The notes under the pieces: generated by a model
What the model saw: only the letters and a program-made list of their open reading frames with translations
Told to the model about the DNA's origin: nothing
Database searches by the model: none
Translations under genes and position numbers: made by a program
Shown here: piece by piece, positions 1,490 to 32,609 of the stretch
How positions within the stretch are numbered: the first letter of the stretch is position 1
Layout of the letters: every line of letters starts with the position of its first letter
IMG/VR virus record: IMGVR_UViG_3300028920_000149
Span: 1 to 39,258 of that record
Reading direction: 5' to 3' (one strand)
Length of the DNA: 39,258 bases
Origin: a virus

Positions 1490-1507
1490 TTTTCTCTCCT
1501 CTTGTAA

Positions 1508-1857
1508 TGGAGGTGGGGGGAATCGAACCCCCGTCCAGTAGCACATCTGCAATGGCATCTACGGTCATAGTCAGCACATTTAGTTGTCACCCTTTCTCGT
1601 CTCCGCACTGACAGGATACTTAGGGGTCACCCGCATGTTAGTGCAATCCCTCCGTCCACACGAGAAGTCCAAAAGGGACCGGCCTGATGCTTTCGTCCCT
1701 ATCCCCTATCAGACATCAGAGTAGGAACGTGACTGCTCTAAGCAGCCATTTTGTATTGGCTTTTGCCAGTTATTGTTTTGCAGGGTTTTACGAGGCCACC
1801 TGCAACCTCGAATCGCAACCAGAACTTCAAGAGCCCTGTCGATACCTTAACACCCCC
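1508..1857 (-). ncRNA. ssrA: Transfer-messenger RNA (tmRNA)
   Basis: tmRNA rescues stalled ribosomes by acting first as alanine tRNA and then as a short message. The 5' end GGGGGTG (1857-1851) pairs with the 3' CACCTCC ending at 1509, with a G-U at the third pair, the alanine identity element. The 5' half has the typical GGTATCGACAGGG, and the 3' end has a T-arm GGGGG-TTCGATT-CCCCC. The 3' CCA is not encoded. The internal message reads GGC at 1767 through TAG at 1738, giving the tag GKSQYKMAA, whose end -MAA resembles the usual -LAA/-VAA degradation tags. At 350 nt the size is normal. It lies between a strong promoter/tRNA-like gene and the GCDIH gene. No smpB is visible in the window. Confidence 0.93.
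1738..1767 (-). other. tmRNA tag reading frame (GKSQYKMAA-stop)
   Basis: Ten codons inside the tmRNA, GGC to TAG, encode GKSQYKMAA. The Gly resume codon followed by Lys resembles the GKT-type beginning of Bacillus-like tags, while the C-terminal Ala-Ala suits ClpXP/ClpAP recognition. The resume codon is inferred from this similarity; a GCA a few codons upstream is out of frame with this stop and meets a TAA at once. Confidence 0.75.
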
Positions 1858-1874: not shown

Positions 1875-2027
1875 GGGATGAGGCAGGGATTCGCACCCTG
1901 CATAACTGGGTAACGGTGCGGGGGCCAATCCGCCCTGAGGCTTACAGACGTTATCCTGATAGCCATCCGTAGGGGTGTTCCCAGTCTACCCCGACTCGTA
2001 GCGTCTACCTATTCCGCCACTCATCCC
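1875..2027 (-). tRNA. tRNA-like RNA with interrupted anticodon region (Leu/Ser-like 5' half)
   Basis: The 5' half carries TGGCGGAATAGGTAGACGC, a near-textbook D-arm of a tRNA-Leu. The 3' end has a T-arm GCAGGG-TGCGAAT-CCCTGC. GGGATGAG at 2027-2020 pairs with CTCATCCC at 1882-1875 as an acceptor stem. Between D-arm and T-arm lie roughly 100 nt rather than about 30-40, and I cannot fold a normal anticodon arm from the flanks. No CCA is encoded. It could be a tRNA with an insertion or small intron, a decayed tRNA, or a tRNA-like RNA with another role. It shares an identical 5' leader with the tmRNA. Confidence 0.45.
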
Positions 2028-2041
2028 CATTTTCAAAGAAC
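2025..2041 (-). repeat. 17-nt leader repeat, copy at the tRNA-like 5' end
   Basis: This is the second identical copy of GTTCTTTGAAAATGGGG, positioned relative to the tRNA-like RNA as the first copy is to the tmRNA. Confidence 0.8.
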
Positions 2042-4539: not shown

Positions 4540-4980
4540 TTAATTATCCTCCAATTTGATCTTGCACTTTTTACACTTCTTTACATGGTATTTCATCTTA
4601 CGTGCACTGTGCCTCTCACCACATTTTGGGCACACAAGAAAACCACCCGTTCTCTGATATCGGCCTCTTAGATTCGCCATCATTCTCTCTCCCTTCTTGA
4701 GTCCATCAAGGAATATGCGGGTTTTTTCTCTCCATGCCGCCAAGTCAACGGAGTTGTGGTGTCCCTCAAATGCTTCCGTCAACAAATCCACGGCCTTGTC
4801 TCGCTCCTCCTCCTCAATCTCAAGCCTGTCACAGCTATTGCAACACTCCTCTAACATCTCGACCTCTGTATTCAGCCGCTCCACCTCCTCCCGCAGTGCG
4901 TCTCGCTCGGCCTCGAGTTCGCCAACACACATGCCGCATACCCACTGCTTCTTCATGCCGTGCTTGCAGACTTCCATCAT
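4540..4980 (-). CDS. Coiled-coil protein with C-terminal zinc finger, 146 aa (cassette gene)
   Basis: Starts MMEVCKHG directly behind an SDGE element (4985-5003). A Cys-containing N terminus is followed by a coiled coil (about residues 20-65), then FLDGLKKGE near residue 95, and a C-terminal CPKCGERHSARKMKYHVKKC zinc finger. The DNA for IFLDGL (gagtccatcaaggaat) is identical to that in the gene at 6055-6420, where the protein ends soon after. This copy instead continues into the zinc finger, so it looks like a fusion of two modules. The region is GC-richer than its surroundings. Confidence 0.65.
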   Translation of the reverse strand: MMEVCKHGMKKQWVCGMCVGELEAERDALREEVERLNTEVEMLEECCNSCDRLEIEEEERDKAVDLLTEAFEGHHNSVDLAAWREKTRIFLDGLKKGERMMANLRGRYQRTGGFLVCPKCGERHSARKMKYHVKKCKKCKIKLEDN

Positions 4981-5288
4981 TCGCCCTCCCCGTCAGATTT
5001 GGCCGCACGGTAAAACGCAGGAGCCGTGGCCTCCTCGTATACGGCCCACGCAGGAGCCGTGGCCTCCTCGTATACGGCCCACGCAGGAGCCTCGGCCTCC
5101 ATGTATGCGGCCCTCGCAGGAGCGGACAGGATGTGTCCTACCGCCCAGTTCAGGTCAAGGCCAAGTTCGACCGCTCTGCGGCACGCCTTCAGCGTCACGC
5201 GGCAGCCTTGAGGCCATTCCTTCTCAAATATCTCCACTTGCTCCTTGCACGCCTTGAGCTTGCGCAGCTTCTTTGCTGTTATCTTCAT
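4977..5288 (-). CDS. Repeat-containing cassette protein, 103 aa, SDGE tail
   Basis: The N-terminal half (about residues 1-60) reads LRKLKACKEQVEIFEKEW...GLDLNWAVGHIL, a pattern seen in small phage proteins of unknown function. The C-terminal half consists of three 11-residue repeats of APAWAVYEEAT type encoded by tandem 33-bp units. The protein ends AKSDGEGE, encoded by the conserved element that also supplies the ribosome site for the next gene. Higher GC than the phage core suggests transfer or recent cassette exchange. Confidence 0.65.
   Translation of the reverse strand: MKITAKKLRKLKACKEQVEIFEKEWPQGCRVTLKACRRAVELGLDLNWAVGHILSAPARAAYMEAEAPAWAVYEEATAPAWAVYEEATAPAFYRAAKSDGEGE
4985..5003 (-). 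repeat. SDGE element, copy A
   Basis: The plus-strand sequence CCTCCCCGTCAGATTTGGC is exact in copies A, B and C. On the coding strand it encodes A-K-S-D-G-E at the end of one gene and provides GGGGAGG as the ribosome site of the next, starting at 4980. Confidence 0.9.
5017..5115 (-). repeat. Three tandem 33-bp repeats
   Basis: Units 5017-5049 and 5050-5082 are identical; 5083-5115 differs at a few positions. The 33-bp length preserves the reading frame, giving 11-residue repeats. Such units can expand or contract by slippage without a frameshift. Confidence 0.9.
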
Positions 5289-5289
5289 C

Positions 5290-5748
5290 CTATTCCTCCC
5301 CGTCAGATTTGGCAGCTTGAATTGCTCTATGCGCCTCTCCCAATCGGGCTGCTACAACTTGCCAGCGAGTACCCTCGGGCATCTCGGCGTTTGCCTTTGT
5401 GTCCAGTATCGCTTTGTCGGCCTTCTCCAACGCCTCCTCCAGCTCCTTGATGCGCTCCCGCAGTGCGTCCTGTTCGCCCTGCGCCAACTTGACCGCAGTG
5501 TATAGCCCGTCATTTTGCTCCCGCAGTGCGTCCTCGATGGGCCGGGTGCGGCCATTCCAGTGTTCAATCAGCATCTTTTCTTTGTCTAAGCCGTATTCTG
5601 CCGTTTCCTCAAACGGGCAATCATCTTCGTACCAGCCCTCGTCTTGTTCATCACCGTCTGCGTGCATAACGTGGACATGTTGCATAACCTTGTTACGATA
5701 TAGGGCTACCTTGCCCCCACAAAACGGACACGGTTTCAGGTCACTCAT
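5290..5748 (-). CDS. Lar-like zinc ribbon fused to a coiled coil, 152 aa, SDGE tail
   Basis: The N terminus MSDLKPCPFCGGKVAL, with a later C and IEHWNGR near residue 62, matches the Lar restriction-alleviation zinc-ribbon family (LKPCPFCGG...AIEAWNRR). These proteins are linked to reducing type I restriction, though many phage copies are untested. From about residue 75 to 115 a coiled coil (ALRERIKELEEALEKADKAI) follows. The protein ends AAKSDGEE. The coiled-coil DNA is shared with two other cassette genes. Restriction alleviation is a family-level inference only. Confidence 0.65.
   Translation of the reverse strand: MSDLKPCPFCGGKVALYRNKVMQHVHVMHADGDEQDEGWYEDDCPFEETAEYGLDKEKMLIEHWNGRTRPIEDALREQNDGLYTAVKLAQGEQDALRERIKELEEALEKADKAILDTKANAEMPEGTRWQVVAARLGEAHRAIQAAKSDGEE
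5295..5313 (-). repeat. SDGE element, copy B
   Basis: Exact CCTCCCCGTCAGATTTGGC on the plus strand. It ends the Lar-like gene and supplies the ribosome site for the start at 5288. Confidence 0.9.
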
Positions 5749-6061
5749 CTTTTGCCTCCCCGTCAGATTTGGCTACATTCCGTATCACTGTAAGCAAATC
5801 GGTTAGACCGTCTGAGCAGGACATTTTTTTGTATGTGCGAATGATAACATCCAAGTCTTTGCACCGCTCCTCCAGCTCCTTGATGCGCTCTACCTGCTCA
5901 TCTGATATTGCCCTCGCATCAAGTGCAAGCCGCAATGCCTTCGTGTAGTCTGCCTTCAGCCGCTCGTTCTCGTCGCTCAACAGCTCCACGCAGTTACAGT
6001 TTCCGTCCGTGTACTTGACCGCGTTGCACTCATTCAAATGCAGTTTGTCGTCTATCACCAT
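5741..6061 (-). CDS. Coiled-coil cassette protein, 106 aa, SDGE tail
   Basis: A short Cys-containing N terminus (NECNAVKYTDGNCNC) precedes a long coiled coil (about residues 25-75), including VERIKELEERCKDLD, whose DNA matches the coiled-coil part of the neighbouring Lar-like gene. It ends VAKSDGEAKDE. It starts at ATG 6061 behind SDGE copy D and overlaps the next gene by eight bases. No enzymatic motif is visible. Confidence 0.65.
   Translation of the reverse strand: MVIDDKLHLNECNAVKYTDGNCNCVELLSDENERLKADYTKALRLALDARAISDEQVERIKELEERCKDLDVIIRTYKKMSCSDGLTDLLTVIRNVAKSDGEAKDE
5755..5773 (-). repeat. SDGE element, copy C
   Basis: Exact CCTCCCCGTCAGATTTGGC on the plus strand, at the end of the 106-residue gene and just before the start at 5748. 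Confidence 0.9.
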
Positions 6062-6420
6062 CGCTCTTCCTCCCCGTCAGATTTGAGTCCATCAAGGAAT
6101 GCATGTCCGGCATCCACCGCAAACTTCTGGTTGCTGTTAGGATGCTGAATAACATATAGCAAACACTTCACAGCCCCCACCCCCACAGCCTTGTCACGTT
6201 GCTCCTGTTCCACCGCACAGCGTTCACCTTTCAACTGCTCTTTTAGCTCCTCGATCTCTTCTTTCAGTTTCTTGTTCTCTTTGTCCCTCCAGCCTATTTC
6301 CATAGCAAGGTACAGAGGAGTACCGGTATTCTCAGCAAACTTGGCAGCAGTAATCTTTCCCTCACACCACTTCGGGTACTCTGTGTTCCAGCATACTTCT
6401 TCATTCGATTTACTCATCAT
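6055..6420 (-). CDS. Coiled-coil cassette protein, about 121 aa, SDGE tail
   Basis: I choose ATG 6420 (or 6417), which overlaps the stop of the membrane peptide upstream, over the longer frame to 6453. The N-terminal part (MSKSNEEVCWNTEYPKWCEG) could bind a partner or metal; a charged coiled coil follows (KLKEEIEELKEQLKGE). The C terminus AFLDGLKSDGEEERW contains the IFLDGL-like segment shared with the gene at 4540 and the SDGE element. First gene of the GC-richer cassette run. Confidence 0.65.
   Translation of the reverse strand: MMSKSNEEVCWNTEYPKWCEGKITAAKFAENTGTPLYLAMEIGWRDKENKKLKEEIEELKEQLKGERCAVEQEQRDKAVGVGAVKCLLYVIQHPNSNQKFAVDAGHAFLDGLKSDGEEERW
6069..6087 (-). repeat. SDGE element, copy D
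   Basis: CCTCCCCGTCAGATTTGAG on the plus strand, differing from copies A-C in the last two bases. It provides the ribosome site for the start at 6061. Confidence 0.85.
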
Positions 6421-6751: not shown

Positions 6752-7621
6752 CTACAGTGCTGCTACCCCACTACTGCGCTTTACCACAACAGGTTCTCTC
6801 CGTACAGGTGGTACTACCCTCTTTGCCCTTTTTATCTTTTCAGCACGTATGTTTCTTTTTATAGCCTTTTTTTGCTTGTTGGTCTCTCTCTTTATCTTCC
6901 TTCTATCCCCTTCATGCAGCTTGCGCCACTTGAAACGTAGCTCATCGAAACACCACCGCTGCTTACGCCTTTTCGAGTTTGACATATTTGTTGGTCTGCG
7001 GGACCGGTACCAATACAATGCCCGTGGAATATATACACACTCACACCCGCTCTCTGCCATACAGATAGCAAGGTTGTAATCTACTGCATATTCGTAATGT
7101 AATCTCAACCCCCGTGACTGCAGATACCACGACCTTTTAAACGTCCTGAAGTGCTGTGCCTTCCACCAACCACTGTCCATAAAGGCTGAATACAGATCAG
7201 TATATTGCTCTACAGGACCTCCCCGTAGCTTACCGGTATCCATCATTACAAGTGACCAAGTAAACCCAACCTTTTTACTTCTTGCCTGCTCAGCCACTGA
7301 AGAGGTTATTGCATCCTCATATATCTGATCGTCTGAATCAAGTACACCTATTATATCTGCACTTGCCTGTGCTATCCCATAATTAGTTACAAACTGCAGC
7401 CCATGTTTTGGTGATTCTATTATACGTATCTTGTGACCTTGGTTTACTGAATTCTTCAGCAACGTTGCCTCATAATACGTCTCTCCATCCGATTCCGGGT
7501 CCATCACTACAAGCAGTTCCCAGTTCCTGTAGTTCTGGTTGCATACGCTAAGCATTGCACTAGCTATGTAAGGTGCGGTATTGTATGCTGGCATCAAAAC
7601 CGTAAAAGGGGGTTCTTTCAA
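6752..7621 (-). CDS. Family 2 glycosyltransferase, 289 aa
   Basis: TTG start at 7621 with AAAGGA upstream. The N-terminal part (FTVLMPAYNTAPYIASAMLS) is the nucleotide-sugar binding start of a GT-A fold, and VLDSDD near residue 92 is the DxD metal-binding motif. YWYRSRRPTNMS near residue 203 ends the catalytic domain. The last 65 residues are strongly basic (KRETNKQKKAIKRN...) and could bind nucleic acid or an acidic partner. Substrate is unknown; phage GT2 enzymes modify DNA bases, capsid or tail proteins, or host surface sugars. One of three glycosyltransferases here. Confidence 0.85.
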   Translation of the reverse strand: MKEPPFTVLMPAYNTAPYIASAMLSVCNQNYRNWELLVVMDPESDGETYYEATLLKNSVNQGHKIRIIESPKHGLQFVTNYGIAQASADIIGVLDSDDQIYEDAITSSVAEQARSKKVGFTWSLVMMDTGKLRGGPVEQYTDLYSAFMDSGWWKAQHFRTFKRSWYLQSRGLRLHYEYAVDYNLAICMAESGCECVYIPRALYWYRSRRPTNMSNSKRRKQRWCFDELRFKWRKLHEGDRRKIKRETNKQKKAIKRNIRAEKIKRAKRVVPPVRREPVVVKRSSGVAAL

Positions 7622-8204: not shown

Positions 8205-8459
8205 TTAATAATCTTTACCCGCATCGTATATTTCCGGCATAGTATAATCTATAGCCACAAAATTATGCACAAAGCTTGCCCACTCTGAAGACTCCCTACT
8301 TAGATCAAATATTTGCTCAGCTACATACCATACTGCCATTCTCTTACTACTTGCCCTAACAAGATATTCTTTTCCCCTAGCCAATACTTTAAAAACCCTA
8401 CCTCTAGATGCTTCACATTTTAGCTTATCTTCTATTAACTTATCTGCCGCAGTATCCAT
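8205..8459 (-). CDS. LID-motif small protein, 84 aa
   Basis: ATG 8459 overlaps the TGA of the zinc-ribbon gene upstream. The N terminus MDTAADKLIEDKLKCE is a clear LID-motif helix, followed by a small domain starting GRVFKVLARGKEYLVRASS. The conserved N terminus with a variable body suggests a sorting or attachment tag on different small proteins. Confidence 0.65.
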   Translation of the reverse strand: MDTAADKLIEDKLKCEASRGRVFKVLARGKEYLVRASSKRMAVWYVAEQIFDLSRESSEWASFVHNFVAIDYTMPEIYDAGKDY

Positions 8460-8629
8460 CACACTTGCCCCCTATTAGCTAACTGTCTTGGCATCTTGCC
8501 ACATGAAACGCAGGGTACCGCCTTGCAGTATGGACACGTTGCCTGCTTGTGGGTCAAGTTACTCCTGAAAATCTTATCACACTTGTAACAAAGGTACCTG
8601 TACTGTCCCTTGCCCCGCTCCTTAACCAT
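8459..8629 (-). CDS. Zinc-ribbon protein, 56 aa
   Basis: ATG 8629 to TGA 8459. CYKC, CPYC and CVSCG pairs with an intervening LTHKQATC form a rubredoxin-like zinc ribbon. It resembles the 45-residue protein at 15253-15390 in the RYL-x-C-Y-x-C-D-K-x-F beginning, indicating paralogues. It sits in an overlapping chain between a membrane protein and a LID-motif gene. Function unknown. Confidence 0.65.
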   Translation of the reverse strand: MVKERGKGQYRYLCYKCDKIFRSNLTHKQATCPYCKAVPCVSCGKMPRQLANRGQV

Positions 8630-10945: not shown

Positions 10946-11824
10946 TCATCCACGAACTACTGCCCTATTTATATTACCGTTATGTGCCCTGCGCTCTTTG
11001 AATATAGCCCTGAAGGCCCTCTCCTTCTGTCTATCATCCCGTGACATCAACTTGCCGCCTGACTGCCCCTTCGCTGGATGATAGACATATGCTCCACCAT
11101 CAAATGCAACCTGCGGTGGTGTTGGGTGACCCCATGTAATGGCTACTTTCTTCCAAGGCTCCCTCTTTGTATTCTCCGGGGTATATGAACCTATATTCTT
11201 TACCCCCAACCCAGTACTGTATGTCAACATACTTATCCACAAATCGTCACTTATTGGTGTACCCAACACGTCCAGATAAGGCTCCTTGAAATACCCTTTC
11301 TGCCTAAATGTCCGTATGCCCTCCTTTGTCAACACCATCATCGCACCCAACACACTCCTACCTTTTTCATACCCCTCAGGTAGAGTAATGTGCTTTGTTA
11401 TCTTGGACCAATACTTGTTTATCACCCGCACCCAATTATCGTGCGGATGCTGCATTGCACCCATAAGACCTACACCCTTATCTATCTCACTGAGCAGCAT
11501 CGCATCTGCACCCTGCCTGATAAAAAGAGTATCATAGTCTATAACGCAATAATGGTCAAACCTTTTCTCCCCGTTACCCCATTCGAGTGCACCGACAAAC
11601 AGCCTATAAAGACCTTTACCCCACCCACATCTACGGGGAGAAATATATACGCCTACGTCAGGATGTGATCTACTAATCAACCCCGCTATATTATTCTCAT
11701 CCTTCAAATCTATTGCCACCATGATATAGGGATTCGTAGTACTGTAGTATTTCACCGAATCTATAGTATCTATTACAGATTCCGCATAGTCATGGCAACG
11801 AATACAAATACAAAGTTTGTCCAT
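10946..11824 (-). CDS. GT-A-fold glycosyltransferase-like protein, 292 aa
   Basis: The N terminus (KLCICIRCHDYAESVIDTID) resembles a GT2 nucleotide-sugar binding strand-helix. FDHYCVIDYDTLFI near residue 95 carries a D-x-D metal-binding motif. Later segments SDDLWISML and YVYHPAKGQ fit the acceptor side of the fold. It differs clearly from the enzymes at 6752 and 20959. The C-terminal 40 residues are basic. Its start overlaps the previous stop (TAATG). The substrate cannot be told. Confidence 0.7.
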   Translation of the reverse strand: MDKLCICIRCHDYAESVIDTIDSVKYYSTTNPYIMVAIDLKDENNIAGLISRSHPDVGVYISPRRCGWGKGLYRLFVGALEWGNGEKRFDHYCVIDYDTLFIRQGADAMLLSEIDKGVGLMGAMQHPHDNWVRVINKYWSKITKHITLPEGYEKGRSVLGAMMVLTKEGIRTFRQKGYFKEPYLDVLGTPISDDLWISMLTYSTGLGVKNIGSYTPENTKREPWKKVAITWGHPTPPQVAFDGGAYVYHPAKGQSGGKLMSRDDRQKERAFRAIFKERRAHNGNINRAVVRG

Positions 11825-12078
11825 TACATGTTATCAATCAGATCAGCACCTGCGTATTCCATTATATGGTTCGTCCTACCCCCACACTTATCACACCTAG
11901 CAGCTAAAACAGCACTACTACCCCGCAACAATACATCGTACACTCTCTGTGACCTATGCACCCCACAATACCCGCAGGCTATTTCCGGAATAGTAAGCCC
12001 AATAACAGTCACCCTACCCTCTGTCTTGACAGTTTTAAGTTTAGTACTTATAAGGTACTCTGCTTGCTTCTCAGACAC
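11824..12078 (-). CDS. LID-motif protein with zinc ribbon, 84 aa
   Basis: GTG start at 12078 with GAGGAGGG upstream. N terminus MSEKQAEYLISTKLKTVKTEG is a LID-type helix. CGYC near residue 36 and CDKCGG near residue 62 form a zinc ribbon. It is the first gene behind the promoter at 12097-12126. It combines two themes of this region: the LID tag and a small zinc module. Confidence 0.7.
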   Translation of the reverse strand: MSEKQAEYLISTKLKTVKTEGRVTVIGLTIPEIACGYCGVHRSQRVYDVLLRGSSAVLAARCDKCGGRTNHIMEYAGADLIDNM

Positions 12079-12154: not shown

Positions 12155-12168
12155 GGCATCTATATGCC
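12155..12168 (-). terminator. Small hairpin after the 1011-residue gene, weak terminator candidate
   Basis: GGCAT-ATAG-ATGCC forms a 5-bp stem directly after the stop codon, followed by AAATATATT rather than a clean T run. Its place between a gene end and the next promoter is right for a terminator, but the structure is weak. Confidence 0.3.
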
Positions 12169-15100
12169 TACCTACCCAACTCCCTAGCAGTCTTGGCCTT
12201 TTTCTGCCAGAAGGGAGTGTAGGCAAACGGAACGTCCAGCCACATCTCCTTGTCTATCTGTGACCGGAACGGCTTACTCTTAAGGTTGAAATTTTTCAGT
12301 ATCTTCCGGGCCTCAGGGGTATCCTTCACGTACAAGTCAGATTCATGGCTATCTACCTGTATGCCAGCCTTTACCAATGCACTGACTACATCATCGTCCC
12401 GCTCGGACAGCTTCTTCTCAATAAGCCCCTCCGCAGACTCTTTCTTTTTCTTACCTTTTACTTTTTTCATACCCCGCATAAACTTATCCTCTACATCCTT
12501 ATTGCCTGCATGACCTGCCCTCTTTGCCATCTTCTTCGCCGCAGTACGCATATGTGGAGTTTCGTCTGCTTCCATCTTATCTTTTATCAAACTCTCTGCA
12601 TCCGCTTTCATAGATTCCTTTCTTACCTTACGGGCACCCTTCACCAACTTCTTCATCTGCTTGGGGCTTACCGTAACAGCAACACCGTCACCCTCCAGAC
12701 TACGGTATATGCACCCCATTTTCGAGTCAGGATAAAACTTATCCTCAAGAACAGAAAGTACTGCCCACTGAGGCACCTCGCATTCTTCCTGCTCCCCAAA
12801 CCCAACCGCATCAAGACAGTACTCCCCTGAACGGTAATTTATGTACATTGTCAGATAATCATCCATGTGCATACGTATATCGTCAAGTATAGCAGAACAC
12901 TCATCGTTACTTAGCTCTGAGAACCCACCTATATCATCCCCTTTGATTTCCCCATAGTTCACCATACGCTGCACTAAAGATTTAAGCTCCTCTTTAACAG
13001 AATAATCATTCAACAACATATAAACATAAGGTTCCTTAAAATCATCGGTCTCATAATACTCAATAAGCCCATTAACATATTCCTCTGTTCTTCTCTCATA
13101 CTCTCTAACTATATCAGCGTATGCTTTATAGTTAGACCCTACGTACTCTTCTATCAAATTCAACATACGCTCACGGATACCGTCACCCCAATGCACCTCT
13201 TCAAAACACCGCCGCGTATACTCTTTTATGAGGTCTTCCCAACGCCTATCTTTTAGGATATCCCGCTTCTTCAACCCCAAAAAAGTAAGGTCTTTCCATT
13301 TCTTATCAAGCTCATAGTTTATCTCTGTTTCAAGATCAGGGTATCTCACTTCCAATAATTTTCTTTCTATCTCCATTGCAACTACAGCCTTCGACTCTTT
13401 AGACGTCTTTTGCCTGTTGTACCTGTTCAAGGCTAACTTTGATACAAACTTTATCTTTGCATCTACTAATTGCTTCAATTGTTCTTTAGTAAGCCCGTCC
13501 AACAGGTCAGTCAGTTTCTTATATGCAGGCTTACTGGGATCAACCCTGTTCAGTTTACCGTAGTCATTCCGTAACTTATCTAGCATATCTTTTGTAAATG
13601 CCCCCTTTGGAGAGGTAAGAGCTATCTCATTAAACCCATACCCTGCTTCAATCTTCTTCTCAACCTTTGCATCTATTAGGCTATCTGCAGATTCCTTTTC
13701 CATCTTGAACTTCTTAATGGACTCTTTAAGAAATACATCCACACTACTATCAGTCTGATCCATATCGTTTCCACCGAATCTTTCCATATTCTGTTTCATA
13801 TAGTTATAGACTCTTTTACGGTCATATGAATCATCCAATATATCTGCTGATACGTAGAACGTATCACCTATACTCTTAACGCTAACATCTACATTAGGAA
13901 ATTTCTTACTAACCATATCTGCAAATGCTCGAGCTCTATCCTGCTGAGAGGATTCTATAATCTCATTATCTATCAAACTCTCTGCCTTGGTTGATTCGGC
14001 AGGTATACACTTGCCCTGCTCCTGTGACCACACCTCACCCTGCTTACATACCTGTTTGGTGTTAGGGTCATTTGAGAACCTACCTGACTTACCGGACGGG
14101 TCTACAGCCCATCTACCCCCACGCATAAACGGCCTACCTTGACCCTTACCAAGACCACTACCGTCCCTACGACCACCACCGGGACCCATACCACGGCCTA
14201 CACCGCCCGGAGGACCAGTACCATCACCACCTGCTTCTTTAATCTTACTATCTATAAGCTCATCTGCTTTCATTTTGGTCTCCATACTTTCTCTTATCTT
14301 ATAGTCAACTGCTGATCTTGCCAGTGCAACCATAGCATCTGTACGCAGCCTACGCCAATTATTGTAATCGGGATAAACTGTGTATCCCCTTACTTCAGCA
14401 CTAACCCCTATACCAACAAGTATATCCCTTACCTCATTTGCATCTGGAATGCTATTCACTTCTATCTGCGGACCAACACCTTCTGTACTAGTTGACGCAG
14501 GTGCTGCTGCACTCATATCTTTCCTGATTATACTGCCCTGTTTTGCCCCCGGTAGCTTCTTTGAACTTCTCAACGTACCCTTCCCACAATTAGGGCACTT
14601 TTTACCATCACATCCGCTCTCCTGTACTGCATACCCGCAAAAGTCACAATCACAGGTATCAACAGACTCATACACTTTCTTTATTCGATAAAGTTCCATG
14701 TCTTTAGTTACCTTAAACCCACCCTGAAGCTCAGTAGACGCCTGAACTTTACTTCCCTCAAACCCATACTTAGCACCATAAGCAGTGACTACAACATAGG
14801 TATCTTTCTGGTAATTATGTGCAGTCTTAGCCGCAGCCAATACAACCGCCTCAAGATCACTGGCAGATACCCTAGACTTAACTCCCTTAAACCCAGTATC
14901 CGCAAATCGTTTCAGCTTATAGGTCTCACTACTCATCAATTCATAACTAAGCCTGCTTTCCTTTACAGACTCATGTATAAGTATAGCATCCCCATCCCAA
15001 CCCTTACGGTCTATCTGTTTCATCATATACTCAAAGTCTGCATTCTGCAGGACATAATATTCTTCCCCACGCAGATCATACGTCTCTGGATTTTTAAACT

Positions 15101-15203
15101 CCCGCACAAACCATTTTTCTATAGCGGGGTCATCTATCTGAAAGGCAACAGTATCTCCCCCATATCCGGTCATTTTTTCATCTATAAGCTCATCTGCTTT
15201 CAC
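12168..15203 (-). CDS. 1011-aa modular protein with six LID motifs
   Basis: GTG start at 15203 with GGAGA upstream. A short helix motif occurs at about residues 2-11 (KADELIDEKM), 312 (KADELIDSKI), 407 (AESLIDNEI), 506 (ADSLIDAKV), 869 (AESLIKDKM) and 924 (AEGLIEKKL), usually preceded by a K/E/S-rich run such as KES. The modules between differ. The first includes a CDFC...CPNCGKG zinc ribbon (about 185-205); the second is Gly/Arg-rich low complexity; the fourth contains LTDLLDGLTKEQLKQLVDAK and a long charged helical region; the last two are short and basic. It looks like tagged small proteins fused in a chain. Packaged head protein, scaffold or cleaved polyprotein are all conceivable; no protease or catalytic site is seen. 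Confidence 0.8.
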   Translation of the reverse strand: MKADELIDEKMTGYGGDTVAFQIDDPAIEKWFVREFKNPETYDLRGEEYYVLQNADFEYMMKQIDRKGWDGDAILIHESVKESRLSYELMSSETYKLKRFADTGFKGVKSRVSASDLEAVVLAAAKTAHNYQKDTYVVVTAYGAKYGFEGSKVQASTELQGGFKVTKDMELYRIKKVYESVDTCDCDFCGYAVQESGCDGKKCPNCGKGTLRSSKKLPGAKQGSIIRKDMSAAAPASTSTEGVGPQIEVNSIPDANEVRDILVGIGVSAEVRGYTVYPDYNNWRRLRTDAMVALARSAVDYKIRESMETKMKADELIDSKIKEAGGDGTGPPGGVGRGMGPGGGRRDGSGLGKGQGRPFMRGGRWAVDPSGKSGRFSNDPNTKQVCKQGEVWSQEQGKCIPAESTKAESLIDNEIIESSQQDRARAFADMVSKKFPNVDVSVKSIGDTFYVSADILDDSYDRKRVYNYMKQNMERFGGNDMDQTDSSVDVFLKESIKKFKMEKESADSLIDAKVEKKIEAGYGFNEIALTSPKGAFTKDMLDKLRNDYGKLNRVDPSKPAYKKLTDLLDGLTKEQLKQLVDAKIKFVSKLALNRYNRQKTSKESKAVVAMEIERKLLEVRYPDLETEINYELDKKWKDLTFLGLKKRDILKDRRWEDLIKEYTRRCFEEVHWGDGIRERMLNLIEEYVGSNYKAYADIVREYERRTEEYVNGLIEYYETDDFKEPYVYMLLNDYSVKEELKSLVQRMVNYGEIKGDDIGGFSELSNDECSAILDDIRMHMDDYLTMYINYRSGEYCLDAVGFGEQEECEVPQWAVLSVLEDKFYPDSKMGCIYRSLEGDGVAVTVSPKQMKKLVKGARKVRKESMKADAESLIKDKMEADETPHMRTAAKKMAKRAGHAGNKDVEDKFMRGMKKVKGKKKKESAEGLIEKKLSERDDDVVSALVKAGIQVDSHESDLYVKDTPEARKILKNFNLKSKPFRSQIDKEMWLDVPFAYTPFWQKKAKTARELGR
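14251..14272 (-). repeat. LID-motif DNA repeat, second copy
   Basis: The 22-nt stretch encoding KADELID is identical in the plus-strand sequence to 15181-15202, pointing to recent duplication or conversion between module starts 1 and 2. Confidence 0.85.
15181..15202 (-). repeat. LID-motif DNA repeat, first copy
   Basis: This is the partner of 14251-14272, covering the first codons of the 1011-residue gene. Confidence 0.85.
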
Positions 15204-15825: not shown

Positions 15826-15981
15826 CTATACCACCCCGTATCCCATTTCCTTGTTCCACAGATACCACATCATAGCAGTAGTCCACTCTTCCTCCTGTGA
15901 CGGGAAAACTGATATCCAATCACCCGTACCCTCACAGTATTCCATGTAGAAGATTACGTCCTTAATACTAAAATTGTTCAT
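15826..15981 (-). CDS. MNNFSI-family small protein 1, 51 aa
   Basis: ATG 15981 overlaps the TGA of the peptide upstream. N terminus MNNFSIKDVIFYMEYC, then EEEWTTAMMWYLWNKEMG, matching the family pattern MNNFSI-x-D-[VA] ... W-T ... K. Three paralogues lie at 16557-16973. The conserved start and W-T core with a variable middle suggest a small fold or binding module. Function unknown. Confidence 0.65.
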   Translation of the reverse strand: MNNFSIKDVIFYMEYCEGTGDWISVFPSQEEEWTTAMMWYLWNKEMGYGVV

Positions 15982-16052
15982 TCCTGATCCATATCCCTAA
16001 CTACCCTTAGAGCGGCACGTTCATCAAAGGTACAAGAGTACATTAAGTACAT
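15978..16052 (-). CDS. Putative leader-like peptide, 24 aa
   Basis: ATG 16052 follows AGGGG and ends in TGA overlapping the next ATG. The product starts MYLMYSCTFDERAALRVV. It could be a real micropeptide or a translated leader coupling expression of the MNNFSI gene. Short length keeps confidence low. Confidence 0.3.
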   Translation of the reverse strand: MYLMYSCTFDERAALRVVRDMDQE

Positions 16053-16060
16053 CCCCTACA

Positions 16061-16156
16061 TCAGGAAGGCATTATTCCTGCAAGAAAATCAGCTAAAGTA
16101 CTGGCAGTAACGCTCAGGCCCACAGTCTCATCTATCTTTATCGGTTGGTCCCGCAT
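16061..16156 (-). CDS. Putative small peptide, 31 aa
   Basis: ATG 16156 lies inside the 3' end of the preceding gene and the frame closes at TGA 16061. The product starts MRDQPIKIDETVGLSVTAS, then ADFLAGIMPS. It fills an otherwise empty stretch and reads like protein, but no family or strong ribosome site supports it. Confidence 0.3.
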   Translation of the reverse strand: MRDQPIKIDETVGLSVTASTLADFLAGIMPS

Positions 16157-16337
16157 CTTTAAGTACCCTGCGTAGCCTGTCTGAAGTAGTTATCTTTTCT
16201 ATCTGCGGTGCGGGTATATCTGCTACTGCTTTGAGGTTGTTATATTCCTCTTTGAGTTCATTGAGTAGCTTTGATTCATCCTTTGAAAGGTACCCCTCTG
16301 CAAGGTCCTTCTCCAACTGTGCCCACTTATCCAACAA
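16128..16337 (-). CDS. Coiled-coil/helical hypothetical protein, 69 aa
   Basis: TTG start at 16337 with GAAGGAGG upstream, a strong ribosome site. The product is charged and helical (LDKWAQLEKDLAEGYLSKDE) with a C-terminal SDRLRRVLKDAG. It begins a run of tiny overlapping genes after a roughly 220-base stretch without a confident gene. Confidence 0.6.
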   Translation of the reverse strand: MLDKWAQLEKDLAEGYLSKDESKLLNELKEEYNNLKAVADIPAPQIEKITTSDRLRRVLKDAGPTDKDR

Positions 16338-16556
16338 TAACCTCCTTCAAAGCAATATATGTTAGTCTCTATAGTTATTAACTCTTATTAAGTGCCCCTT
16401 TATACTATATAGCCTATAAGGTTAAGTTTATACGTAGGTGGAAAGTTGGTACGCACTTTATCTTTTCTGTCCCTGTTCAAGTTATCAAAAGTAATCAGCT
16501 AATAACATCTTCCCTACCATTTTTCTACAAAAAGCCATCCGTTGAAATTGTAGTTA
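16338..16556. other. AT-rich stretch without a confident gene
   Basis: Only very short frames exist; the best is a 20-codon GTG frame (16576-16514) with an aromatic NYNFNGWLFVEKW end but no ribosome site. An imperfect 25-bp palindrome centred on CTATATAG (16397-16421) could be an operator or weak promoter region. No terminator or RNA gene is recognised. Confidence 0.5.
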
Positions 16557-16718
16557 TCATTCTGTACATTTCCCACTATCCAGCATAACCTTGGTATAGG
16601 TTAGATGCATTATTGTCCACTCCGGTATGTAGGTACCTATCCTACTACCTCTCCAATAAACTAGAAATAGGTCTACATAAGCATAGTATAAGGCATCAAG
16701 TATACTGAAATTATTCAC
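16557..16718 (-). CDS. MNNFSI-family small protein 2, 53 aa
   Basis: GTG start at 16718 overlaps the TAG of the preceding paralogue by one base. N terminus MNNFSILDALYYAYVD, then IPEWTIMHLTYTKVMLDSG, very close in its second half to the pattern of paralogue 4. No separate ribosome site is needed if translation is coupled. Function unknown. Confidence 0.65.
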   Translation of the reverse strand: MNNFSILDALYYAYVDLFLVYWRGSRIGTYIPEWTIMHLTYTKVMLDSGKCTE

Positions 16719-16858
16719 TAAAGGAGTCCACTACGCTTTGCTATGTGTATCTTACACGCCCTAGTCCATTGGGGCATACTGGGTATTATGTCCCCCTCGA
16801 TTAAACGGTAATGACATGCCCTATACCACTTGACATCTCTAATACTAAAGTTGTTCAT
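16718..16858 (-). CDS. MNNFSI-family small protein 3, 46 aa
   Basis: ATG 16858 lies inside the last codons of paralogue 4, in another frame. N terminus MNNFSIRDVKWYRACHY, then MPQWTRACKIHIAKRSG. The shared MNNFSI and P-x-W-T signatures across different middles argue strongly that this short frame is real. Function unknown. Confidence 0.65.
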   Translation of the reverse strand: MNNFSIRDVKWYRACHYRLIEGDIIPSMPQWTRACKIHIAKRSGLL

Positions 16859-16973
16859 GCCATCCCTTATCTAGACAAAACTTATACCAGATATATGCCC
16901 CTGTCCACTCCGGTATGTCCGTCCCACCCGTACCTATATAAGCTAAAACATCTCTAATACTGAAATTATTCAT
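16845..16973 (-). CDS. MNNFSI-family small protein 4, 42 aa
   Basis: Start set at ATG 16973 because MNNFSIRDVLAYIG aligns with the other three paralogues; an in-frame extension to 17036 would overlap the upstream gene. The second half IPEWTGAYIWYKFCLDKG matches the family core. It is the first member of the tandem array in transcription order. Confidence 0.65.
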   Translation of the reverse strand: MNNFSIRDVLAYIGTGGTDIPEWTGAYIWYKFCLDKGWHEQL

Positions 16974-30643: not shown

Positions 30644-31689
30644 TTAGCTTCCCTCACAGTCTGTATACCAATAGCACTTAACCTATCATTGTCCAGTTCT
30701 TCCGGACATTCCCTATCAACGTACATTGGTATCTCCTCTTCAAAAGAGGTATCTATAGACATACCTTTTACTCTCTGTGTTTCAACTATCTTTTTTGACG
30801 GTAATACCCTCAGACTTGCAAAATTCCTCTTCTCCAAAATCTTCTTTGTACGCTTTATGTCCTCCGTAATTGCCCTTACATGCAAACCACCCACTGCACG
30901 TTCTTCAGCAAGACTCAATTTAGCCTTTTCATCTGGGTAGGATACTTTTATATACCTACTGGTATAGGGATTAACAGCCCATTCTACCTCACCACTATCT
31001 TTTAACAATAAAATACCCCTCTCAGAATCCCACTCATCCCTGAAATCATGATACATCGGTGCACCAACAGTAATTAGTGTGGGACTCCAATCAGTGTAAA
31101 TATAGGGTTTGTGGTAATGGCCCGATATAACAACTTTATCCTTAAACACCTTACCAGTTAGATCAACCCCAGTGTCCTCTGTGTACCCCGTTGTAAACTG
31201 CATACCTTTTATCGGCATATGCATAACTACGGTTTCCCACTTCTGATGATTTAGTATACTCATATACTGATCCGTATCTTCAGTGTAGCTAGTTATCAAA
31301 AGATCGTCTACTTTAACAAACTGCCCCGGTAACACTACCTGTACATTATCCTTATTAGGTAAAAGTATATGACTATTGCACACACCTGCAGGGTCCTTTA
31401 TGTCATGATTACCTAACATAAAGATATATCGCCTGTTATCGTCTATCAACATTTCCATACCCTGCTTAATCGCATATATAGAAAATAGAGACAACTTACC
31501 TAACTCTTCATTTAGATCACCTGTAAATACAACAGTATCCGGGTTTTTCTTATCTATCATCTCTGCAATCCAGTACAGTGTTTTACACATCTCTCCTACT
31601 ATATCATGAGAGGGTTTATCTAAATCCCAATCATCCATATGTATTGGTCTATCTGCCTGTAATTGAGTATCACCGAAAAATAGAATCAT
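30640..31689 (-). CDS. Recombination nuclease subunit, gp47/SbcD/Mre11-like, 349 aa
   Basis: Phosphoesterase motifs in order: ILFFGDTQL (D7), VVFTGDLNE (57-58), MLGNHD (93-96), VVMHMP near residue 175 and ISGHYHKP near residue 208. The C-terminal part would contact the coiled-coil base of the SbcC-like partner encoded next. The enzyme is a Mn-dependent nuclease of the Mre11 family. ATG overlaps the previous stop. Confidence 0.92.
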   Translation of the reverse strand: MILFFGDTQLQADRPIHMDDWDLDKPSHDIVGEMCKTLYWIAEMIDKKNPDTVVFTGDLNEELGKLSLFSIYAIKQGMEMLIDDNRRYIFMLGNHDIKDPAGVCNSHILLPNKDNVQVVLPGQFVKVDDLLITSYTEDTDQYMSILNHQKWETVVMHMPIKGMQFTTGYTEDTGVDLTGKVFKDKVVISGHYHKPYIYTDWSPTLITVGAPMYHDFRDEWDSERGILLLKDSGEVEWAVNPYTSRYIKVSYPDEKAKLSLAEERAVGGLHVRAITEDIKRTKKILEKRNFASLRVLPSKKIVETQRVKGMSIDTSFEEEIPMYVDRECPEELDNDRLSAIGIQTVREAK

Positions 31690-31934
31690 CCTTTCTCCTT
31701 TTTAGCCTTTTTACTGCTATGACTTATCTCTTTTCCTTTCTCGTCAGATTCACCCATCTGGACTGCAATCACATTATTTGCCACTATCGCAAACACAACC
31801 CGAAAACACCTTGCGCACCAATAGGCAACACACGGCTCACCCGCAAGCATTGCCGGACGTTCATCGAATTTGTTTGGGTCCATTTCCTCACACAGTGAAC
31901 CACACTGGCACCATACGTCACGCACGGCTTTCAT
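31686..31934 (-). CDS. Zinc-motif cassette protein, 82 aa
   Basis: ATG 31934 behind SDGE copy E. Cysteines at VWCQCGSLC near residue 7 and CVAYWCARC near residue 34 can form a zinc site. The C terminus GESDEKGKEISHSSKKAKKEKG contains a partial SDGE-like sequence and a basic tail. It looks like the first cassette downstream, reworked. Function unknown. Confidence 0.6.
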   Translation of the reverse strand: MKAVRDVWCQCGSLCEEMDPNKFDERPAMLAGEPCVAYWCARCFRVVFAIVANNVIAVQMGESDEKGKEISHSSKKAKKEKG

Positions 31935-32125
31935 CACGCACCCTCCCCGTCAGATTTGGGCTTGTCAAACCGCTCTTGCGGTGGAGTTACTATACCAAGC
32001 TGTACCTCATCCATGTGTGTAGCCTTCTCTTTTTGGGCCGCATACCATTTTTTAAGCGCATACGACTCTGTTGGTGTCTCGGCTGTAATCCACAAACAAC
32101 CACTAGCTTGTATCTCCGCTTTCAT
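31934..32125 (-). CDS. SDGE-cassette protein, 63 aa
   Basis: ATG 32125 behind SDGE copy F; an extended frame to 32236 would read into the previous gene and is rejected. The product starts MKAEIQASGCLWITAETPTE and continues YALKKWYAAQKEKATHMDEV, ending PKSDGEGA. The N terminus resembles small phage proteins in which a beta-hairpin W-I-x-A-E-T-x-x-E-x-Y-A-L-K-x-W occurs. Function unknown. Confidence 0.65.
   Translation of the reverse strand: MKAEIQASGCLWITAETPTESYALKKWYAAQKEKATHMDEVQLGIVTPPQERFDKPKSDGEGA
31942..31960 (-). repeat. SDGE element, copy E
   Basis: CCTCCCCGTCAGATTTGGG on the plus strand, one base different from copies A-C although about 26 kb away. It ends the 63-residue gene and provides the ribosome site for the start at 31934. 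Confidence 0.9.
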
Positions 32126-32126
32126 C

Positions 32127-32609
32127 CTATTTCTCCCCGTCAGATATATAGGGATCATACAAAAACCGCACCCAAACACACCTGTAGCCAGACCTCCGGC
32201 GCAACCTCCTCCAATCCCTACGGTAGTCCTTGTCACATTCGGGCCACCCGTCCATAAACCGCCTGATACACTCAGACCTCGTGGAAAACGCCGTTGGATA
32301 AATCAGGATATCCTCCGTCGCAATCATCCAACAACCATCGTGTTTCATACTATGTGTTCCTTCACATCTTACAGCCTCCAATACCCTATCCAGCTCCTTG
32401 ATGCGCTTGCGGGCCTCATACAGCGCGTCCTCTAGATTGGCGACCTCGCTGGTGAAAGTATCGACCTGTGCCTCTAGCCCACCGACCGCCTGTAGTGCAT
32501 TGTCTCGCTCGGCTTGCAGTGCATCCAACGCATCATATAGTCCGTCTGGACCACATATCATTTCAATCATTGCCTCTATCGTTTTGTTGCTGCAATCTTC
32601 ACGCTTCAT
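32127..32609 (-). CDS. Coiled-coil cassette protein, 160 aa, SDGE-type end
   Basis: Start at ATG 32609 (GGGAGGGTGAGTAGG upstream) rather than 32666. The N-terminal helix KTIEAMIEMICGPDGLYDAL leads to a coiled coil (about residues 25-75) that includes RKRIKELDRVL, with DNA closely matching the coiled-coil segments in the 5-6 kb cassettes. The C-terminal part contains Trp and Arg-rich segments and ends SDGEK. Evidence that the two cassette loci share modules. Confidence 0.65.
   Translation of the reverse strand: MKREDCSNKTIEAMIEMICGPDGLYDALDALQAERDNALQAVGGLEAQVDTFTSEVANLEDALYEARKRIKELDRVLEAVRCEGTHSMKHDGCWMIATEDILIYPTAFSTRSECIRRFMDGWPECDKDYRRDWRRLRRRSGYRCVWVRFLYDPYISDGEK
32133..32145 (-). repeat. 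SDGE element, copy F (shorter)
   Basis: The core CTCCCCGTCAGAT is kept on the plus strand, while the outer bases diverge. It is still placed between the end of one gene and the start of the next (32125). Confidence 0.8.

Follow-up and report, generated by a model that had tools for sequence, protein, structure and literature searches.

Phage mosaicism is usually put down to illegitimate recombination combined with selection for intact genes. In the modular theory of lambdoid phages, short sequences shared at gene borders were proposed to target homologous exchange (discussed in PMC3029335), and the adjacent genes 67 and 68 of Island3, compared with Brujita, share a C-terminal coding segment, which was read as a recombination site of gene gain or loss (PMC3029335). 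Start-Associated Sequences (SAS) are known from cluster K mycobacteriophages and from cluster EF Microbacterium phages; they are 13 nt long and present in 10–19 copies, and those of cluster K are located mostly past large intergenic gaps, many of them with an upstream ESAS (PMC3203893, PMC7302621). The repeat described here, designated J, has its nearest known kinds among these elements, the SAS by position and the Island3 67/68 segment by mechanism.

The window, i.e. the whole stretch of DNA analysed, is a contig of 39,258 nt from an unclassified bacterial virus encoding a T4-like portal, a UvsX/RecA-like recombinase, SbcC/SbcD-like genes, an exonuclease and a DNA polymerase. The contig is probably a fragment, because the DNA polymerase ORF is cut off by the right-hand contig end. 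A gp32-like protein gave a weak match, just under the cut-off. The preliminary description had reported a repeat at 4985, 5295, 5755 and 6069 as well as at 31942, with a shorter core at 32133, and all of these copies were present; it had placed them on the plus strand, but the genes are actually on the minus strand. The 17-mer CAAATCTGACGGGGAGG (minus strand) was identical at five sites, where the common 17-mer CCTCCCCGTCAGATTTG was exact in each copy, and the core TCTGACGGGGAG occurred at the sixth, which retains only 12–13 nt (32132/32133). The longer 19-mer matched perfectly at 4985, 5295 and 5755, the copy at 6069 deviated at two terminal positions and that at 31942 at one; about 0.01 matches to it were expected by chance from dinucleotide shuffles.

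Like the SAS, J is a short asymmetric repeat with a Shine-Dalgarno core a few nucleotides before gene starts, conserved beyond ribosome pairing, and like them it stands before non-structural genes of different families. Unlike the SAS, J is 12–19 nt long and present in six copies; it always encodes the end of the upstream gene in a single frame, it is associated with compositionally foreign genes, and its sequence differs from the published SAS consensus (GGGATAGGAGCCC or GGGAAAGGACCCC). Since J shares two features with the SAS and lacks their intergenic placement and consensus, it was not classed as one. The Island3 67/68 case is one event of about 50 bp, derived from two compared genomes, whereas J forms six shorter joints in one genome. 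The boundary sequences of the modular theory are common to different phages at one locus, whereas the copies of J all lie in one genome, each serving as coding sequence and ribosome site at once.

The first array was composed of genes g1–g5, all on the minus strand. The coiled-coil ORF g1 (6055–6417), ending with FLDGLKSDGEEERW, is joined at J1 (6069–6085, CAAATCTGACGGGGAGG) to g2 (5741–6061), which contains the ERIKELEE segment and ends with AKSDGEAKDE. J2 (5755–5773, GCCAAATCTGACGGGGAGG) connects g2 with g3 (5290–5748), encoding a Lar-like zinc N-terminus with a coiled coil and ending with AKSDGEE. J3 (5295–5313) and J4 (4985–5003), both exact copies of the 19-mer, form the g3/g4 and g4/g5 joints, g4 (4977–5288) ending with AKSDGEGE and g5 (4540–4980) combining a GC-rich N-part with an in-frame C-part that is richer in A+T and zinc-ribbon-like. 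The g4 ORF carries a tandem repeat (5015–5123, minus strand) with a 33-nt unit encoding EEATAPAWAVY, two copies of which are identical. In the second array, also on the minus strand, the coiled-coil ORF h1 with a RIKEL island (32127–32609, ending with YISDGEK) is linked at J5 (32133–32144, core TCTGACGGGGAG only) to the 63-aa ORF h2 (31934–32125, ending with PKSDGEGA), and J6 (31942–31959, the 19-mer with one mismatch) links h2 to the Cys-rich ORF h3 (31686–31934), which has its own end without J.

The array genes had been called coiled-coil or zinc protein genes, and this stood for g1, g2, g5 and h1, which are coiled-coil-like, and for g3, with its sub-threshold Lar-like match, but not for the repeat protein g4 or for h2 and h3, for which no match was found. 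The g3 protein matched PF14354 at 2.8e-6, just under the curated cut-off, and phrog_599 at 5.8e-7. No useful match was obtained for the other array genes, and PADLOC gave weak matches only. Lar proteins act in restriction alleviation, and the g3 N-terminus hints that the arrays may hold host-takeover or anti-restriction genes.

All six copies of J were located within the upstream ORF, at its 3' end and in one reading frame, and none of the six followed an intergenic gap of more than 50 bp. As had been claimed, each encodes SDGE at the C-terminus of the upstream protein, followed by one to four codons and a stop, and each places GGGGAG(G) 5–8 nt (core end to ATG) before the next start. A viable end of the upstream gene would be possible in all three frames, one of which even gives TGA, and the probability of a single frame in six copies by chance is about (1/3)^5, i.e. 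about 0.004.

Comparison with the surrounding codons, named in the preliminary description as a possible refutation, showed J to be the more conserved. The codons TCT GAC were present in all six copies, the chance of which was about 2e-6 with backbone codon usage and about 2e-4 with the usage of the cassette genes, J copies included. In a control SDGE within the glycosyltransferase ORF at 7492, the peptide is encoded by TCG GAT GGA GAG, and a second control, four MNNFSI paralogues (15826–16973), carries silent differences. Because the codon identity of J exceeds the need of the peptide and both controls differ, conservation at the DNA or RNA level was concluded. Anti-Shine-Dalgarno pairing is possible for GGAGG only. 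The 10 bases 5' of GGGGAGG (CAAATCTGAC) were invariant in five copies, past the need of 16S rRNA pairing. RNA folding revealed no conserved structure around the six copies, and promoters and terminators were at or below the shuffle level.

The array genes are mosaics, in which exact islands of 15–24 nt lie amid unrelated sequence and J, with its six joints, is the commonest island; the earlier claim of exchanged segments was borne out in this form. Exact repeats of at least 14 nt numbered 18 in the array genes; 192 random pairs of equally large regions had 0.7 on average and never more than 5. The ERIKELEE island GAGCGCATCAAGGAGCTGGAGGAG was found in g2 (5867–5890, minus strand) and g3 (5434–5457, minus strand), with a 19-nt version in h1 (32389–32407, minus strand). 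The DALRE island AGGACGCACTGCGGGAGC occurred twice in g3 (5517–5534 and 5454–5471, minus strand) and in a 15-nt version in g5 (4888–4902, minus strand), so that GACGCACTGCGGGAG is present two times in g3 and once in g5. The FLDGLK island ATTCCTTGATGGACTCAA runs into J1 in g1 (6083–6100, minus strand) and recurs in g5 (4697–4714, minus strand) just before an internal ribosome-site-like sequence. These mid-gene islands are not ribosome sites, and outside them almost nothing could be aligned between the array genes at the DNA level.

Both blocks are GC-rich relative to the phage backbone. Block A (4683–6090) had a GC content of 0.553, same-size windows elsewhere not exceeding 0.46, and block B (31934–32609) one of 0.506, barely above the next-highest same-size window (0.505); GC3 was also raised in g2–g5. 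A break in composition falls within g5 at the ribosome-site-like AAGGGAGAGAGA-ATG (4681–4695, minus strand). At this AAGGGAGAGAGA-ATG-ATG, directly past the FLDGLK island, GC decreased from 0.54 to 0.41 and GC3 from 0.68 to 0.46 (codon permutation p = 0.0034 for the GC drop, with the split point picked by eye at the ATG). Gene g5 seems to combine imported sequence with a resident zinc-ribbon ORF, the two being joined in frame at the latter's ribosome site. The two accessory blocks (4683–6417 and 31934–32609) look like GC-rich imports, although their GC richness may come in part from coiled-coil and Ala-rich amino-acid usage.

The reading preferred here, which was judged to have about an even chance of being correct, is that two blocks of mosaic small genes were imported, that their joints and islands were spread by short-homology recombination and that J preserved translational coupling. 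J would provide an in-frame SDGE C-terminus and, inside the upstream gene, a Shine-Dalgarno-like site serving the next ATG. The islands would have spread as small genes were duplicated and recombined through short homologies, in this phage or in some unsampled donor; a previous duplication is required, since a crossover at existing islands swaps the flanks and makes no new copies. In silico crossovers between J copies left the upstream ORF closed in 30 of 30 ordered pairs and, together with the single frame, these agree with the earlier view of the copies as uniform junctions. J would survive because any crossover there keeps the upstream ORF closed and the ribosome site properly spaced; genes could consequently enter, leave or be exchanged with the coupling intact. 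The RecA/UvsX-like, SbcCD-like and weakly gp32-like proteins of the phage could carry out such recombination; stretches of 17–24 nt are short for recombination of the RecA type. J resembles a scar, or a hinge, of putative gene shuffling by cassette swapping, and the term "system" used previously was too strong, as no sign of dedicated machinery was found. A stronger version was considered improbable: J would be kept by the lineage as a standard joint, its uniformity due to continual exchange, and new small, perhaps anti-defence genes would be loaded into the operon by short-homology recombination.

J accompanies the ribosome sites of six genes and is conserved far past the need of such a site, CAAATCTGAC being retained although pairing is limited to GGAGG; this would also be expected of an SAS-like control site, i.e. 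an extended ribosome-binding element recognised by a phage or host protein or RNA and co-regulating the accessory genes. The SAS repeats of clusters K and EF are of just this kind (PMC3203893, PMC7302621). Such a site leaves the exact mid-gene islands and the common frame of all six copies unexplained, however, no conserved RNA structure accompanies the copies, and SAS are found mainly at genes after gaps of more than 50 bp, whereas J is always inside the upstream ORF. This explanation is possible, though on the unlikely side, and it could hold together with recombination.

Plain tandem duplication, in which the genes are old paralogues with C-termini and joints as their last conserved remnants and J has no role in recombination, would account for the order shared by g2, g3 and h1, from an ERIKELEE-like segment to the SDGE end. 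Old paralogues would be expected to show alignable similarity over whole genes, but at the DNA level only short exact islands aligned, with abrupt edges, identity at silent sites (at which the MNNFSI paralogues differ) and nothing alignable between them, and g4, g5 and h2 have other or no further common islands; the explanation is accordingly improbable. It is very improbable that SDGE is a functional peptide tag, acting in partner binding or turnover, with the DNA identity being incidental: the same acidic tail ends six proteins, but the residues after SDGE vary from one to four and the codon identity is far above what the protein needs.

A search for J in other phages and hosts, which the preliminary description had suggested, covered IMG/VR, the GenBank phages and 85k prokaryote genomes and gave no match in the same role; nor did it yield a relative with the cassettes, whether present, absent or swapped. 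The exact 16-mer of J had only two unrelated single matches in IMG/VR, and a scan for the core followed by ATG returned at least 120 single-copy stretches, which are thus mostly due to chance. In the prokaryote genomes, 12 single matches in mixed frames were obtained, compared with about 17 expected by chance (a rough estimate). Three cassette proteins had no relative among GenBank phages, blastn of the cassettes gave a sole match of 32 nt in the Lar-type start of g3, and contigs carrying the ERIKELEE island elsewhere encode ordinary coiled coils without J. Scans of IMG/VR with the portal, gp32-like and g3 proteins gave no match. Relatives of RecA reached 57% identity, and the contigs encoding them shared no gene order with the window except for a distant resemblance of replication genes in one (L151). 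The base rate was taken from about 160 other loci, which yielded one further start-associated repeat, found in L113. In this 135-kb viral contig, TAGGCACTAAGGAGGTGA precedes three small genes at 579, 1334 and 4018, and it is retained at the first two of them in two relatives (L175 and L176). As the same two genes stand behind TAGGCACTAAGGAGGTGA in both relatives, no exchange is indicated there.

Several other features of the window were recorded. A phage-borne tmRNA was located at 1505–1857 (minus strand; Rfam 147 bits, ARAGORN tag GKSQYKMAA). The adjacent stretch of about 145 nt (1882–2030, minus strand) has tRNA-like ends by eye (GGGGATGAGTGGCGGAATAGGTAGACGC ... GGTGCGAATCCCTGCCTCATCCC), is flanked by a 31-nt direct repeat (1851–1881 and 2022–2052) and gave no call from Rfam or from ARAGORN with introns. 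A 1011-aa protein (12168–15203, minus strand) carries the motif A(D/E)xLI(D/E)xK N-terminally and at five internal sites; the motif also lies near the N-termini of the proteins encoded at 11824–12078 and 8205–8462 (minus strand) and may be a common signal for targeting or processing. The MNNFSI group comprises four tiny proteins (15826–15981, 16557–16718, 16718–16858 and 16845–16973, minus strand) which begin with MNNFSI(R/K)D and contain PEWT further on, clear in three of the four; their silent differences are those of ordinary paralogues.

A repeated joint of the J type would provide a signature with which other genomes can be searched. If the recombination reading is true, a frame-fixed joint combining a coding end with a ribosome site would represent a concrete and testable route by which a phage stacks accessory genes undamaged.
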